From Pseudomonas sp. MIACH (GTDB lineage Bacteria > Pseudomonadota > Gammaproteobacteria > Pseudomonadales > Pseudomonadaceae): DNA of 64,000 nt. A program made the position numbers and the translations under genes. The stretch lies in assembly GCF_001269925.1 (NCBI RefSeq), contig NZ_LHVO01000065.1:1-64000 (forward strand). Reading direction: 5' to 3'. Position 1 is the stretch's first letter; every line of letters starts with the position of its first letter. The notes under the pieces are model-generated. The model saw only the letters and a program-made list of their open reading frames with translations. It was not told where the DNA came from and searched no databases. Below are positions 11,131 to 26,675 of this stretch, one piece after another.

Positions 11131-11210
11131 TGGTGTGTATCAGTCCGTCATCGGGAGCAAGCCCCCTCCCACAGGGGAATGCATTCCAAATGTGGGAGTG
11201 GGCTTGCCCA
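11131..11210. repeat. pair of REP elements in opposite orientation
   Basis: CATCGGGAGCAAGCCCCCTCCCACA and AATGTGGGAGTGGGCTTGCCC lie about 15 bases apart between two convergent genes. The close inverted pair could also act as a bidirectional terminator. Confidence 0.7.
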
Positions 11211-19669: not shown

Positions 19670-20416
19670 TCAGTGGGCGAGGAATTTGCTCAGGAACTGC
19701 CGGGTGCGTTCTTCCTTGGGGTTGGCGAACAACGCCTTGGCTTCGCCTTGCTCCACGATCACGCCCTTGTCGAAGAAGATCACCCGGTTGGCGACATCGC
19801 GGGCAAAGCTCATTTCATGGGTGACGATAACCATGGTGCGGTTTTCTTCGGCGAGGCTGCGGATGGTCGCCAGTACTTCGCCGACCAACTCCGGGTCCAG
19901 CGCGGAGGTGGGTTCGTCGAAGAGGATCACCTCCGGCTCCATGGCCAGCGCGCGGGCAATCGCCACGCGCTGTTGCTGGCCGCCGGAAAGGCGCCGTGGG
20001 TAGGCGTCTTCCTTGCCCGCCAGGCCGACCCTGGCCAGCAGCTTGCGCCCCAGGGCGATAGCCTCTTCGCGCGGCATCTTCTTGACCACGGTCGGCCCTT
20101 CGATGACGTTTTCCAGCGCCGTGCGGTGGGGGAACAGGTTGAAGTTCTGGAACACAAAACCCACGTGCTGACGCAGGCGCCGTACCAGGCCTTGTTGCTG
20201 GTTGAGCGGTTTGCTGCCGTCGATCTGGATATCGCCCACCTTGATTCGGCCGCTGGTGGGTTCTTCGAGGAAATTCAGGCAGCGCAGGAAGGTGGTCTTG
20301 CCGGAACCGCTGGGGCCGATGATGGCGACGACTTCGCCTTCCTTGACCTCCAGGTCGATGCCGTTGAGTACCACCTGACCGTTGAATTGTTTGGTCAGTT
20401 TTTCAACCACGATCAT
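19670..20416 (-). CDS. tcyN: L-cystine ABC transporter ATPase TcyN
   Basis: This 248-aa ATPase has Walker [10 protein letters not shown] (about residues 34-42), signature LSGGQQQR, Walker [13 protein letters not shown] and switch THEM. It follows the permease gene with 3 bases between. Its likeness to E. coli TcyN (YecC) and the linked FliY-type binding protein and D-cysteine desulfhydrase, as in E. coli and Salmonella, support a cystine importer. Confidence 0.88.
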
Positions 20417-20419
20417 GCT

Positions 20420-21085
20420 TCAAGACTCCAGGTCATGCCGGTTGACCCGGTCTTCCAGGCGGTTTTGGAAATGCGCCAGGATGCTTGCCAGCACCCAGTA
20501 GATCAGGGCGGCGGACAGATACATGGTGAAAATTTCGAAGGTGCGCGCAGACACCAGTTGAGCCTGGCGGAATAGCTCTGGCACCTGGATGGTGGCGGCC
20601 AGCGCGGTGTCCTTGACCAGCGAAATAAAGCTGTTGCCCAAAGGCGGCAGGGCGGTGCGCATCGCCTGCGGCAGGATGGCCCGGCGCAGGGTCTGCGCAC
20701 GGGTCATGCCGATACTCGCGGCGGCCTCCCACTGGCCACGCTCGATGGAAGCGATGGCGGCCCGCAGGATTTCACAGGCGTAGGCGGCCATGTTCAGCGA
20801 AAAGCCGATCATGGCGGCCGGAATCGGATCCAGCTCGATGCCCACTTGTGGCAAGCCGTAGTAGATCAGGAACAGCTGTACCAGCAAGGGCGTGCCGCGA
20901 AAGAACGACACGTAGACGCGGGCTGTCCAGCTCAGCAGCTTGAAGCGCGACAGGCGCATCAAGGCCAGGCCGAAGCCCAGCAGCAAACCGAAAAACATCC
21001 CGCCAAGGCTGAGAATCACCGTGTAGTACGCGCCCTTGAGCAGAAAGGGCGCGGAGTCCAGCGCGAGTTGGAAACCTGCTTCCAT
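20420..21085 (-). CDS. tcyL: L-cystine ABC transporter permease TcyL
   Basis: This 221-aa inner-membrane permease carries the EAA motif (EILRAAIASIERGQWEAAASIGM, about residues 105-127) and the typical HisM-family end. Its ATG at 21085 shares its first base with the stop codon of the binding-protein gene. One permease gene means a homodimeric channel, as in TcyJLN of E. coli. Confidence 0.88.
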   Translation of the reverse strand: MEAGFQLALDSAPFLLKGAYYTVILSLGGMFFGLLLGFGLALMRLSRFKLLSWTARVYVSFFRGTPLLVQLFLIYYGLPQVGIELDPIPAAMIGFSLNMAAYACEILRAAIASIERGQWEAAASIGMTRAQTLRRAILPQAMRTALPPLGNSFISLVKDTALAATIQVPELFRQAQLVSARTFEIFTMYLSAALIYWVLASILAHFQNRLEDRVNRHDLES

Positions 21086-21879
21086 TATTGAGTGACGTCA
21101 GCGTTGAAGTACTTCTCGGACAGCTTTTTCAAGGTGCCATCGGCGCGCAGCTTGTCGAGGGCCTTGTTCACTGCTTCAAGCAGCTCGGGCTCGCCTTTGC
21201 GCAGGGCGATACCGGCTTCCTGGCGGGAGAACGCGTCGCCGGCAGCGGCGGTGTCCGGGGCTTTCTTGGCGTATTCCAGGGCGGCCAGGCGGTCGATCAG
21301 GATGGCGTCGATACGGCCGATGCGCAGGTCCTGGAACTTGGTCGGGTCATCGTTATAGGTCTTGATAATGGCTTTTGGTTGGTTGTCCTTGAGCCATTGT
21401 TCGTAGTTGGTGCCCAGGCCTACCCCGACTTTCTTGCCGGCCAGGTCGTTGGCGGTCTTGATGGTGTCGACGTTCTTTTTCAGCACCAGTGCCTGGATAC
21501 CGGAAACGGTGTAAGGCGTGGAGAAGTCGTACTTCTTCTTGCGCTCTTCAGAGATGGTGACTTGGTTGACCACCGCGTCCAGGCGCTTGGATTCCAGGGC
21601 CGCGAGGATGCCGTCCCAGGGTGTGGCCTGGAGCTTGACCTTCACGCCCAGCTCCTTGGCCAGGGCTTCGGACAGCTCGACTTCGAAACCGCTGAGCTTG
21701 CCGCTTTCATCGACGAAGCTGAACGGCGGGTAGGTGCCTTCCAGGCCGATTTTGATCTCGCCGGCCTTTTTGATATTGCCCAGTTGCTCGCCGGCAACCG
21801 CCTGGCCCAGCCAACCGGCGCCGAGAGCCAGACCCAAAGTGCCAACCAGCAACGTGCGACGGAATACAGAAATAGTCAT
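21085..21879 (-). CDS. tcyJ: L-cystine-binding periplasmic protein TcyJ
   Basis: This 264-aa family 3 solute-binding protein has a Sec signal peptide ending QAVA|GE and no lipobox. Motifs: IKIGLEGTYPPFSFVDESGKLSGFEVEL, VNQVTISEERKKKYDFSTPY. It matches FliY/TcyJ of enterobacteria in length and motifs. The gene opens the operon tcyJ-tcyL-tcyN. Upstream lies an AT-rich stretch with an inverted repeat (22022-22040) that may be a CysB-type site. Confidence 0.88.
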   Translation of the reverse strand: MTISVFRRTLLVGTLGLALGAGWLGQAVAGEQLGNIKKAGEIKIGLEGTYPPFSFVDESGKLSGFEVELSEALAKELGVKVKLQATPWDGILAALESKRLDAVVNQVTISEERKKKYDFSTPYTVSGIQALVLKKNVDTIKTANDLAGKKVGVGLGTNYEQWLKDNQPKAIIKTYNDDPTKFQDLRIGRIDAILIDRLAALEYAKKAPDTAAAGDAFSRQEAGIALRKGEPELLEAVNKALDKLRADGTLKKLSEKYFNADVTQ

Positions 21880-22053
21880 GAAGAGCCCCTGTGTTTTTTA
21901 TGTTGAGCGAAGCAGGTGACGCAGTAGTCGTATCCTGCCTTAAAGCGCGTAGCGCGTCTTCGCCTGCGGCGCGATGATAAAGCCGGGTTTTAAGACTTGA
22001 AAATAATATTAAACTCAATTGATATTCTATTTTTGAATATGTGTTGAGTCTAA
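21880..22053 (-). promoter_or_regulatory. tcyJ promoter region with AT-rich inverted repeat
   Basis: The segment 21985-22045 is very AT-rich. ATATTC (22022-22027) and GAATAT (22035-22040) form perfect 6-bp arms with a 7-base spacer, fitting the T-N11-A form of LysR-type sites such as CysB. The rest of the gap to 22263 is repeat DNA. Confidence 0.4.
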
Positions 22054-22248
22054 TGTGGGAGGGGGCAAGCCCTAATGCCAGTCAGTTAAGCGTACATCGC
22101 CCCCTGTAGGAGCGAGCTTGCTCGCGAAAAACGTCAACGATAACGCGTGCTTCCTGAATGAACGCGGCGCCTGTGAGTTTTTCGCGAGCAAGCTCGCTCC
22201 TACAAAAAGCCTTAACTGCCTGGCATTAGGGCAAGCCCCCTCCCACAT
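22054..22248. repeat. nested REPIN: one REP family inside another
   Basis: The outer arms 22054-22090 and 22209-22248 are inverted copies of ATGTGGGAGGGGGC ... CCTAATGCCAG.CAGTTAAG. Between them lies a second, different REPIN with arms TGTAGGAGCGAGCTTGCTCG (from 22105) and CGAGCAAGCTCGCTCCTACA (to 22204). The whole could fold as a long cruciform and separates tcyJ and the desulfhydrase gene. Confidence 0.8.
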
Positions 22249-22263
22249 TTAGCCCGCGTTTAT

Positions 22264-23259
22264 TCAGTTGAAAACCGAGTCATAGGCAAACAACGCCGGT
22301 GCTCCACCGGTATGCAGGAAAATAATCGGGCCATCTTCAAAGCGCTGGCGCCCGATGCCGTCCAGCAAACCTGCCATGGCCTTGCCAGTGTAGACCGGGT
22401 CCAGCAGCAGGCCTTCCTGGCTCGCCAATAGCTTGACCGCCGAAAGGGTGCCGGCGTTCGGTTCGCCGTAACGGGGGGCGAAATATTCGTCCCACAGGAT
22501 CACCTTGAACGCATCGGGGATGTCCACGCCGAGCAACTCGGCCGTGCGTTCGGCCAGTCCCTGGACTTTCGGCAACTGCGCTTCTTCGGTACGCGATACG
22601 GTGATGCCGATCACGGGCAGTTGCGGCAGCACTTCACTCAAGGCCAAGGCCAGGCCGCTGTGGGTACCGGCGCTGCCGGAGGCCAGCACCACGGCGGCGA
22701 ATTCGATGCCGCTGTCTTCGATCTGCCCGGCCAGCTCCAGACCGGCGCGCACATAACCTAGGGCGCCGAGGGCATTGGAGCCACCGATGGGCACCAGGTA
22801 CGGCTTCTTGCCGTTGCTGCGCAGGCGATCGGCGAGGGCGTTGAGTTGGTCGTCGACGTTGTCGAGGTTTTCGACCAACTCAACCTTGGCGTCGAACAAC
22901 TCCAGCAGCAGGCGGTTGCCGTTGCCCAGGTAGTTGGGGTCTTCGGTGCCGGTGGGGTTTTCCAGCAGGGCGACGCAGCCCAGGCCGAGCTTGGCGGCGA
23001 GGGCGGCGGTCTGGCGTACGTGGTTGGACTGGATGGCACCGGCGGTCACCAGGGTATCGGCGCCCTGGGCGATGGCATCGGCTGCCAGGTATTCGAGTTT
23101 GCGCAGCTTGTTGCCGCCCATGGCCAGCGGCGTGGTGTCGTCGCGCTTGACGTAGATGTCGCGTCCCAACCAGGTCGACAGCCGTTCGAGTTTTTCCAGG
23201 GCGGTGGCGCCGCCGAGCAGTTCCAGGCGGTTAAAACGGTCGAGCTGTTGCTTGATCAT
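22264..23259 (-). CDS. dcyD: D-cysteine desulfhydrase
   Basis: This 331-aa PLP enzyme splits D-cysteine to pyruvate, ammonia and sulfide. The PLP lysine is Lys51 in [12 protein letters not shown], followed by [26 protein letters not shown] forms the phosphate pocket. Length and motifs match DcyD; ACC deaminase is the closest alternative. Its position upstream of tcyJLN on the same strand copies the enteric dcyD-tcy order, though here 384 bases of repeat and promoter DNA separate them. It is divergent from epsC. Confidence 0.88.
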
Positions 23260-23425
23260 GGCTACGCACGGTGGCTAAGGGATGAGGCGACTATAGGCAG
23301 GCACTTTTCATCGGGCAACCGCCAATCGCTTATGTCGGATGGTTCTTAGCATCGCACCATTGGTTCTTAAGGGCAGTCAGGGCGCATACCGTAAAGTGAT
23401 GGCCATTACATCAGGAGTGAATACC

Positions 23426-24352
23426 GTGAGTGAGCGTTCCAGCCATTGGCAATTACAGACCATTGTCAGCCAACTGCGCGGCGCCCGTGACCAGTGGCGA
23501 ACGCGCAATGGCCGTTTGAGCGGCGAGCATGGCGGCCGCGAATTGCCGTCCCGTGAAGCCGTTGCCCAGATTCTCGAGTCCCTCTGCGGTGCGCTGTTTC
23601 CGATGCGCCTGGGGCCGGCGGACTTGCGTGAAGAAAGTGAAGATTTCTACGTCGGCCATACCCTCGACGTCGCGCTGAATGCCTTGCTCGCCCAGGCGCG
23701 TCTGGAGTTGCGTTATGCCGCGCGCCAGGGCGGCCAGGACGACAGCCAGATCGACGCCCATGCCATCCGCCTGATCCAGGATTTCGCCCTGGCCTTGCCG
23801 TCATTGCGCAGCCTGCTGGATACCGACGTACTCGCCGCCTACCACGGCGACCCGGCCGCACGCAGTGTGGATGAAGTGCTGCTGTGCTATCCGGGGATCC
23901 TGGCGGTGATTCACCATCGCCTGGCCCACCACCTGTACCGCGCCGGCTTGCCGCTGCTGGCACGGATCAGTGCGGAAATCGCCCACTCGGCCACCGGGAT
24001 CGATATCCACCCTGGTGCGCAGATCGGCCCGAGTTTCTTTATCGACCACGGGACCGGCGTGGTGATCGGCGAAACCGCGATCATCGGCGAGCGCGTGCGT
24101 ATCTATCAGGCGGTCACGTTGGGGGCCAAGCGCTTCCCGGCGGATGAGGATGGACAGTTGCAGAAGGGCCATCCGCGCCATCCGATTGTCGAGGATGATG
24201 TGGTGATCTATGCCGGGGCGACGATCCTCGGGCGCATCACCATCGGCAAGGGCTCGACCATTGGCGGTAACGTGTGGCTGACCCGCAGTGTGCCGGTGGG
24301 GGCGAACATTACGCAGGCGAATTTGCAGCATGATGATGGGGCGCAAAAATAG
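23426..24352 (+). CDS. epsC: serine O-acetyltransferase EpsC
   Basis: This 308-aa enzyme acetylates L-serine with acetyl-CoA, the first step of cysteine synthesis. I chose the GTG at 23426 because CAGGAG lies 8 bases before it; the longer reading adds 29 residues with no ribosome site. The C-terminal half is a left-handed beta-helix with hexapeptide repeats (IDIHPGAQIGPSFFIDHGTGVVIGETAIIG, VIYAGATILGRITIGKGSTIGGNVWL). The N-terminal extension is helical and longer than in CysE, as usual for the EpsC/SATase type in pseudomonads. Confidence 0.88.
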   Translation: MSERSSHWQLQTIVSQLRGARDQWRTRNGRLSGEHGGRELPSREAVAQILESLCGALFPMRLGPADLREESEDFYVGHTLDVALNALLAQARLELRYAARQGGQDDSQIDAHAIRLIQDFALALPSLRSLLDTDVLAAYHGDPAARSVDEVLLCYPGILAVIHHRLAHHLYRAGLPLLARISAEIAHSATGIDIHPGAQIGPSFFIDHGTGVVIGETAIIGERVRIYQAVTLGAKRFPADEDGQLQKGHPRHPIVEDDVVIYAGATILGRITIGKGSTIGGNVWLTRSVPVGANITQANLQHDDGAQK

Positions 24353-24379
24353 CGCCGGTCTTAAAAATCACACAAAACC

Positions 24380-24411
24380 CTGTGGGAGGGAGCAAGCCCC
24401 CTCCCACATTG
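24380..24411. terminator. REP hairpin after epsC
   Basis: TGTGGGAGGGAGCAAGCCCCCTCCCACA is a near-perfect inverted repeat 28 bases after epsC. It has no T-run, so it is a REP element that may protect or end the transcript. Confidence 0.55.
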
Positions 24412-24553
24412 AATTGCATTCCAACGTTGAACCGTATTTCAGTCAGTAACCGCTGAACGATTTGCCTCTTCCACCCGTCATACCAATCCTTGAGCTAGTG
24501 TAGGAATTATCTACCACTCAGCCCTGCGATTAGTCCCAGACCGCCTACCTATG

Positions 24554-24581
24554 TTTAACTTGAACGTTCGTTCAAGTTAAA
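24554..24581 (+). promoter_or_regulatory. probable BetI operator before betT
   Basis: Perfect 13-bp arms TTTAACTTGAACG and CGTTCAAGTTAAA are separated by two bases. The inner TTGAACG...CGTTCAA form is typical of sites for TetR-family BetI, the choline-responsive repressor of bet genes. No betI gene lies in the window, so BetI would act from elsewhere. The rest of 24412-24553 shows no gene. Confidence 0.7.
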
Positions 24582-24621
24582 CCCGGTGGTTCGCTGCCCG
24601 CTCACAACAGGAGGCTTACCT

Positions 24622-24678
24622 TTGCTGAGTCCGTTTTATACAGCCACATCCCTCACCCTCGGGGTGCACCGTTCATGA
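24622..24678 (+). CDS. 18-codon leader ORF overlapping betT
   Basis: A TTG codon 7 bases after a perfect AGGAGG (24609-24614) opens an ORF reading MLSPFYTATSLTLGVHRS. Its TGA stop (24676-24678) overlaps the betT ATG (24675) as ATGA. betT itself lacks a ribosome binding site, so ribosomes probably reach it through this ORF. A function for the peptide itself is not claimed. Confidence 0.5.
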   Translation: MLSPFYTATSLTLGVHRS

Positions 24679-26675
24679 GTGCATCGTCTACCCCATCCAG
24701 CGGCCTGGTGCGCATGAATGCGCCGGTTTTCTACTTCGCCGCAACCTTCATTTTGCTGTTCGGCATCACTGTCATCGCTATCCCGCAACAGGCCGGTGCC
24801 TGGCTGCTGGCGGCGCAAAACTGGGCGGCCAACACGGTCGGCTGGTACTACATGCTGGCGATGACCCTGTATCTGGTCTTCGTGGTGGTCACCGCGCTAT
24901 CGGGCTACGGCAAGATAAAACTCGGTGCCGACCACGACGAGCCCGAATTCAGTTACCTGTCCTGGGCCGGCATGCTGTTCGCCGCCGGGATCAGCATCAC
25001 GCTGTTCTTCTTCTGCGTGTCCGAACCGCTGACGCACCTGGTGCAACCGCCCCAGGGCGAGGCCATGAATGCCGACGCTGCACGCCAGGCCATGCAGGTG
25101 CTGTTCCTGCACTGGGGCCTGCACGGCTGGGGCGTGTTTGCCTTTGTCGGCATGGCGCTGGCGTATTTCGCCTACCGGCATAACCTGCCGCTGGCGTTGC
25201 GCTCGGCGCTGTACCCGCTGATCGGCAAGCGCATCAACGGCCCTATCGGCTATGCGGTCGATGGCTTCGGCATCATTGCCACGGTGTTCGGCCTCGGTGC
25301 CGATATGGGCTTCGGCGTGCTGCACCTCAATTCCGGCCTCGACTACCTGTTCGGCGTTGCCCACACCCAGTGGATCCAGGTCGGCTTGATCACCTTGATG
25401 ATGGGCGCGGCGATCCTCGTCGCCGTCGCCGGCGTCGACAAGGGCGTGCGGGTAATGTCCGACATCAACATGCTGCTGGCCTGTGCGTTGCTGCTGTTCG
25501 TGTTGTTCGCCGGGCCCACCCAGCACTTGCTCAACACCCTGATCCAGAACATCGGTGACTACCTGGGCGCGTTGCCGACCAAGAGTTTCGATGTGTACGC
25601 CTACGACAAACCGAGCGACTGGCTGGGCGGCTGGACAGTGTTCTACTGGGCCTGGTGGATCGCGTGGTCGCCGTTCGTGGGCCTGTTTATCGCACGCATT
25701 TCCCGTGGCCGGACCATCCGCGAATTCGTGTTCGGCGTGCTGCTGATCCCGTTGGGCTTCACCCTGGCGTGGATGTCTATCTTCGGCAACAGCGCCATCG
25801 ATCAGGTGCTCAACCACGGTATGACCGCACTCGGTCAGTCGGCCATCGATGATCCATCGATGAGCCTCTACCTGCTGCTGGAAACCTACCCGTGGAGCAA
25901 AACGGTCATCGCGGTCACGGTGTTTATCAGCTTCGTGTTCTTCGTCACGTCGGCCGACTCCGGCACCGTGGTGCTCTCGACCCTGTCGTCCAAGGGCGGC
26001 AACGCCGACGAAGACGGGCCGAAATGGTTGCGAGTGTTCTGGGGTGCAATGACGGCGCTGGTCACCAGTGCGCTGCTGTTTGCCGGCAGCATTGATTCGC
26101 TTAAATCGGCGGTGGTGCTGACCTCGTTGCCGTTCTCGCTGATCCTGTTGCTGATGATGTGGGGGCTGCACAAGGCCTTCTACCTCGAATCGCAAAAGCA
26201 GATTGCGCAGTTGCATTCGCTGGCGCCGGTGTCGGGCTCACGCAAAGGCACGGGCGGTTGGCGCCAGCGTTTGAGCCAGGCCGTGCATTTCCCATCGCGG
26301 GACGAGGTGTACCGCTTCCTTGAGACCACGGTGCGTCCGGCGATTGAAGAAGTGACCGCGGTGTTTGTCGAAAAAGGCCTCAACGTGGTGACCCAGCCGG
26401 ACCCGTCCAACGACAGCGTCAGCCTGGAAATCGGTCACGGCGAAGAGCATCCATTCGTGTACCAGGTGCAGATGCGCGGCTATTTCACGCCCTCATTTGC
26501 ACGCGGCGGCATGGGTTCCAAGCAGCTCAACAATCGCCGCTACTATCGGGCGGAAGTGCACTTGAGCGAGGGCAGCCAGGACTACGACCTGGTCGGCTAC
26601 ACCAAGGAGCAGATCATCAACGACATCCTCGATCAGTACGAACGGCACCTGCAGTTCCTGCATTTGGTGCGTTAA
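24675..26675 (+). CDS. betT: BCCT-family choline transporter BetT
   Basis: This 666-aa inner-membrane transporter imports choline with protons for glycine betaine synthesis under osmotic stress. Twelve membrane helices are expected; the BCCT signature is WTVFYWAWWIAWSPFVGLFIARISRGRTI (about residues 318-346). A C-terminal cytoplasmic tail of about 150 residues, as in osmosensing BetT proteins, follows the last helix. The BetI-type palindrome at 24554 supports choline. The gene is followed by a clear terminator at 26791. Confidence 0.9.
   Translation: MSASSTPSSGLVRMNAPVFYFAATFILLFGITVIAIPQQAGAWLLAAQNWAANTVGWYYMLAMTLYLVFVVVTALSGYGKIKLGADHDEPEFSYLSWAGMLFAAGISITLFFFCVSEPLTHLVQPPQGEAMNADAARQAMQVLFLHWGLHGWGVFAFVGMALAYFAYRHNLPLALRSALYPLIGKRINGPIGYAVDGFGIIATVFGLGADMGFGVLHLNSGLDYLFGVAHTQWIQVGLITLMMGAAILVAVAGVDKGVRVMSDINMLLACALLLFVLFAGPTQHLLNTLIQNIGDYLGALPTKSFDVYAYDKPSDWLGGWTVFYWAWWIAWSPFVGLFIARISRGRTIREFVFGVLLIPLGFTLAWMSIFGNSAIDQVLNHGMTALGQSAIDDPSMSLYLLLETYPWSKTVIAVTVFISFVFFVTSADSGTVVLSTLSSKGGNADEDGPKWLRVFWGAMTALVTSALLFAGSIDSLKSAVVLTSLPFSLILLLMMWGLHKAFYLESQKQIAQLHSLAPVSGSRKGTGGWRQRLSQAVHFPSRDEVYRFLETTVRPAIEEVTAVFVEKGLNVVTQPDPSNDSVSLEIGHGEEHPFVYQVQMRGYFTPSFARGGMGSKQLNNRRYYRAEVHLSEGSQDYDLVGYTKEQIINDILDQYERHLQFLHLVR

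Follow-up and report, generated by a model that had tools for sequence, protein, structure and literature searches.

The choline transporter gene betT of Pseudomonas sp. MIACH is preceded by an 18-codon ORF which, with a probability that we put at roughly three in four from the sequences compared, is a dedicated upstream ORF for ribosome delivery, coupled to betT by termination-reinitiation and lying below a BetI-like operator. The start of this leader, its open frame and the overlap of its stop codon with the betT start are conserved while its peptide drifts, and therefore it probably serves to deliver ribosomes and not for its product. Ribosomes would load at the AGGAGG and TTG of the leader, translate 17 or 18 codons, in doing so also clearing RNA folded over the betT start, and terminate at the TGA, which shares bases with the ATG of betT; there the same or an adjacent ribosome would reinitiate. 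In the main clade of leader-bearing genes a Shine-Dalgarno (SD) sequence, GAGGTG or GGGGTG, buried in the last leader codons would help reinitiation, and the leader peptide would be a by-product. Translation of the leader, the termination-reinitiation step and the size and sign of the effect on betT are what we infer from sequence.

Layout of the leader and its surroundings

The window, by which is meant the whole stretch of 64,000 nucleotides analysed, has in 5′ to 3′ order an inverted repeat, AGGAGG, the leader ORF and betT, the last three on the forward strand. The strong leader SD, AGGAGG, is at 24609-24614, 7 nt before the TTG (24622-24624) that begins the leader (24622-24678), whose 18 codons end at TGA (24676-24678); the standard table translation of the leader is LLSPFYTATSLTLGVHRS. 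The ATG of betT (24675-24677) overlaps the leader stop as ATGA (24675-24678) in the -4 arrangement, and this geometry is exactly as the preliminary description gave it. The 666 amino acid betT product (24675-26675), a choline transporter of the BCCT family, matches NCBIfam NF007399, 'choline BCCT transporter BetT', at 819.9 bits, where the cut-off is 695, and the solved chain 8ybq ('BCCT family transporter') matches it over its full length.

The inverted repeat upstream of the leader, to which no strand applies, is at 24553-24582 and is perfect, with arms of 14 nt and 2 nt between them. A perfect inverted repeat of such a kind is expected of BetI sites, and the betT product, scoring above the NF007399 cut-off, is a BCCT protein of the BetT type as is that of the BetI-regulated betT1. 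By its sequence, and by analogy with betT1 of P. synxantha 2-79, upstream of which a conserved BetI site is reported (PMC12442406), the repeat is a putative BetI-like operator.

The genes further upstream (19670-24352) read, by eye, as a set for a cystine-type ABC transporter, one resembling D-cysteine desulfhydrase and one resembling serine acetyltransferase, and betT seems to be controlled from a region apart from them. An element of the TGTGGGAGGGGGCTTGC type, which looks like a repeat of the REP/REPIN type, has 15 sites in the window with at most 2 mismatches where 0.04 would be expected; one of them is at 24392-24408, and there are close inverted pairs at 11157/11191, 54127/54199 and 59859/59931.

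In 464 kb of the same genome 321 long ORFs served as gene proxies, of which just two, this locus included, have an AGGAGG-led ORF of 8 to 40 codons with its stop overlapping an in-frame start. The leader geometry is more than chance, and the comparative evidence given below is far stronger than this within-genome background. A family of similar leaders elsewhere in the genome was considered and rejected: with as many as 3 mismatches allowed, the pattern AGGAGG-N7-TTGCTGAGTC had a single exact match, which is this leader, and 22 weaker ones, a total of 23 against 30 in the reversed control. Inspection by eye of the betT paralogue (L002) revealed no such leader.

Distribution and history of the leader

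The sample comprised 164 distinct regions lying upstream of betT orthologues, being the best matches to the BetT of the window or to a related BetT together with twenty hand-picked divergent genomes; most loci are such best matches, so close relatives are over-represented in the counts. The window's own locus (L001), the paralogue, a region with a run of N (L036) and one that is cut off (L082) were left out before counting. The 164 divide into 140 of the main clade with a leader of 17 or 18 codons, two of the main clade without one (L060 and L190), six from two sister genera with leaders of 13 or 14 codons, and 16 from the outgroup, all leaderless, and so the leader is present in 140 of the 142 distinct main-clade regions. 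One genome labelled as another genus (L192) is counted among the 140, as its BetT clusters with the putida group in the tree. The organism name of another locus, L067 (contig NZ_VWXI01000018.1, titled Pantoea sp. Cy-639), is doubtful, its betT and leader resembling those of the Pseudomonas putida group.

The leader starts with TTG in 139 of the 140 and with ATG in the remaining one (L150, from genome G046), where nature provides a ready-made test of start strength. Exact AGGAGG is present in 139, the exception being TGGAGG in L140, and its spacing to the start shifts between 6 and 8 nt while the register from TTG to stop holds. The stop of the leader overlaps the betT start as ATGA (135 cases), TGATG (two), TAATG (two) or CTGA (one), the first three types accounting for 139 of the 140. 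In L059, for which the automated call was 'no overlap', CTG stands in place of the betT ATG and the leader is intact. As for the putative BetI operator, 126 of the 164 regions carry the narrow pattern TTGA.CG..TCAA in the 200 nt upstream and 38 lack it.

Leaders in the two sister genera also begin with TTG, and all six end on an ATG or GTG, which in five of them is in frame with betT. The sixth (L184, G396:C1) has leader and ATGA, and its betT frame is off by one base in a run of C just after the start, perhaps an assembly error or a broken gene; it was counted with the short leaders although the automated call was 'no overlap'. By the automated call, half of the 16 outgroup regions have a direct start with an SD and ATG, in two an SD stands 11 nt from a TTG start and five are devoid of a site; the last, L177, has an upstream ORF with AGGAGG and GTG that does not overlap betT, and, by eye, AAGGAG just before the ATG. 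In the aeruginosa group (L077-L079 and L186-L189) betT may begin at TTG, with an SD-like site 11 nt (automated call) to 13 nt (by eye) away and no leader.

In a BetT tree of 57 rows the leader-bearing genes, those of the main clade and of the two sister genera together, form one clade with moderate support (85/74) that also holds both leaderless main-clade rows; outside it betT is without the leader. Judged from this tree the leader was likely gained within its clade, the direction being likely and not sure because the root rests on a distant paralogue with a very long branch. L060 is a short metagenome contig; its betT groups as sister to that of the leader-bearing L061 (support 97/99) and has AGGAGG 11 nt before its ATG, on which grounds loss of the leader with retention of its SD is the likeliest account of L060. 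A second loss is probable in L190, whose betT starts with GTG and has GGAGG 12 nt before it, though its branch is long and its position within the main clade is not settled by the tree. The automated call of a 31-codon TTG ORF ending on that GTG was judged to be no leader, as its start lies ahead of the operator-like repeat.

Selection and ribosome entry

Selection was estimated on a tree of those 133 betT genes whose leaders have 18 codons, with omega, the ratio of nonsynonymous to synonymous change, taken as a rough parsimony count. For leader codons 5-13, 16 and 17 it is 0.89 (bootstrap 0.70-1.14). Over codons 2-17 minus 14-15 it is 0.97 in the leader frame against 1.06 and 0.78 in the other two, and in codons 2-4, where there are few changes, 2.58 (0.76-8.16). 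The breadth of this last range, and the 0.78 that comes from the betT frame read over the leader, make the method a coarse one. In codons 21-120 of betT the same tree has 252 nonsynonymous against 1215 synonymous changes. By these counts the leader peptide is drifting neutrally, and what is conserved is the start, the open frame and the end, not the product. A ribosome-delivery ORF should have a dispensable peptide, and the evidence for that here is evolutionary.

A leader frame that is not conserved had been named in the preliminary description as what would speak against the leader. The frame is conserved: none of the 120 distinct 18-codon leaders has a stop in it, while the other frames past the constant start have stops in 29 and 33. 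The rows scored as leaders were chosen for an intact leader of 17 or 18 codons, with the two main-clade rows lacking one set aside, which slightly favors this result. Counted over the tree, steps through a stop in the leader frame number 2 against 8.2 expected, with no present-day leader carrying a stop, and in the other frames 30 against 29.4 and 20 against 19.4. Neutral evolution was simulated 1000 times along the betT tree at the observed per-site rates; in no run did all 133 leaves stay open, a mean of 18% of leaves being broken.

The slowly changing places are the start region, the GAGGTG and the overlap of stop and ATG. For the start codon one change is inferred where 10.3 are predicted from the rate in codons 2-4 (P about 0.0004), and the lone variant, TTG/ATG, is a start-to-start change. 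That TTG has hardly ever given way to ATG or GTG suggests selection for the weak start itself, which would set the dose of transporter; the whole start region is slow, though. It is a tentative proposal, to which we lean slightly less than to its contrary, that the leader is a natural and fixed ribosome loader with a throttle, the weak TTG start, the open frame and the stop atop betT being its only selected properties.

The supposition that betT lacks its own ribosome site is incorrect. An SD-like site, GGGGTG at 24661-24666 on the forward strand, in codons 14-15 of the leader, is 8 nt before the ATG, and in most relatives its counterpart is GAGGTG (the second position of the hexamer is A in 70% of the 120 distinct leaders). 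Its predicted energy of pairing to the anti-SD tail comes to -8.7 kcal/mol in the window, a value reached by 2.1% of 3000 random genome 15-mers, and over the 140 leaders the median is -9.3 (range -13.0 to -5.4); the random 15-mers have a median of -2.85 and a 5th percentile of -7.4, and about 2% of them reach the values of the betT SD. The hexamer changes slowly: the number of changes inferred per site is 2.8, and in codons 5-13 it is 15.8. The corresponding median for the leader SD over the 140 is -10.3 kcal/mol. Because a fair SD stands before main-clade betT, ribosomes could also enter there directly, and coupling may be partial.

Among the six sister-genus rows, pairing is good at the leader SD (-7.9 to -11.5) and poor at betT (-2.6 to -5.8) in all but one, the exception (L185) being strong at -9.4. 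The coupling of betT to its leader that the preliminary description put forward is thus well supported by inference, from what is kept of start, frame and overlap, what is not kept of the peptide and the poor betT SD in those five rows, and its premise of a betT devoid of an SD fails in the window. The predicted cost of opening the RNA is greater at the betT start than at the leader start in 105 of the 120 distinct leaders (medians 13.7 versus 11.1 kcal/mol), and removal of the upstream RNA lowers the cost at betT by a median of 1.9 kcal/mol, a modest effect.

Other readings and known systems

The same features could be those of a damper, in which a strong SD and weak TTG catch ribosomes, most of which then fall off, so that betT expression is held low. 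Retention of TTG in all but one of the leaders, though ATG is one base away, and the presence of an SD before main-clade betT are in keeping with this, but in five of the six sister-genus rows the leader is probably the main supply of ribosomes, and the losses have kept a strong SD 11-12 nt before betT, which is unexpected if that SD lowered expression. We regard a damper as unlikely. A role in mRNA stability, with ribosomes held at the 5′ end guarding against decay and no reinitiation, has a precedent in the proposal made for integron ORF-11/ORF-17 before a gene with its own SD (PMC8876359). It would not need the stop overlap, yet 139 of 140 leaders overlap as ATGA, TGATG or TAATG, and we consider it improbable.

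In position and length the leader resembles known leader peptides, a likeness that invites the thought that stalling on particular codons or on the nascent peptide tunes betT to amino acid or osmotic state. Attenuator leader peptides such as trpL, ermCL and mgtL depend on particular codons or on the peptide, and they too are short ORFs before a regulated gene; the codons of the betT leader, in contrast, drift neutrally, and LLSPFYTATSLTLGVHRS contains no run of one repeated codon. A search of Rfam with 24300-24900 at E up to 1 gave no match, no terminator-like site was found on the leader (+) strand and the fold of the leader RNA in the window was no better than its shuffles (z +0.98). There is then neither the conserved codons or arrest peptide nor, in these searches, the alternative RNA structures or terminator of an attenuator; attenuation and riboswitch candidates were accordingly rejected, the tuning suggested in the preliminary description is unsupported and a sensing leader is highly improbable. 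Least credible of all is an untranslated leader, with AGGAGG either a relic, which would not be expected to hold the leader frame open in all 120, or the SD of an N-terminally longer BetT, which the 703 codons open in the betT frame in the window, extending upstream of the ATG, would allow but which was rejected, as that frame has no upstream ATG, GTG or TTG (24675 being the first start after a stop) and is interrupted in 33 of the 120.

Ribosome delivery finds its closest parallels in systems that resemble the leader in their features. The leader has its own SD and start, by sequence, and in the main clade a stop overlapping the betT start, while all six short leaders end on an ATG or GTG. 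In the attI1 of class 1 integrons ORF-11 (and ORF-17 and ORF-18) is likewise an SD-led mini-ORF of 11 to 18 codons feeding ribosomes to the next start, where amino acid changes had slight effect and changes to SD or start lowered expression (PMC8876359). ORF-11 starts with ATG and serves exchangeable cassettes, whereas the betT leader starts with TTG, is fixed to one chromosomal transporter gene and overlaps it. Upstream ORFs 'delivering' a ribosome, gene pairs with termination-reinitiation coupling at -4/-1 overlaps (PMC12548453) and the short ORFs of mycobacterial MIRU, whose sole proposed function is driving downstream translation (PMC12548453, PMC6728339), have the same ATGA/TGATG overlap; unlike overlapping protein gene pairs or mobile MIRU repeats, the first member here is an ORF of 13 to 18 codons with a neutral peptide.

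Synthetic bicistronic-design cassettes have the same order, a first SD, a short leader holding a second SD and a stop overlapping the second start. The betT leader differs in being natural, in its TTG start and in its conservation over a clade. Such short ORFs have biotechnological use and those that only deliver ribosomes have been proposed to be widespread in bacteria (PMC12548453). No description of the betT leader was among the matches listed from the open-licence literature (titles and the beginnings of abstracts), and the word 'leader' does not occur in the main text of PMC12442406. The concept is therefore known, and known in integrons, with the betT case apparently undescribed among the matches listed.

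In the literature passages compared, evidence of a natural chromosomal delivery ORF kept while its peptide drifts was not met. The betT leader provides a clean case, with the frame open and the peptide free, length variants from 13 to 18 codons, one change of TTG to ATG, a clear deletion and a second that is probable, and relatives some of which have a good downstream SD and some not. Fusions to betT in Pseudomonas should keep the leader, as the site where ribosomes effectively enter may be 66 nt ahead of the ATG.
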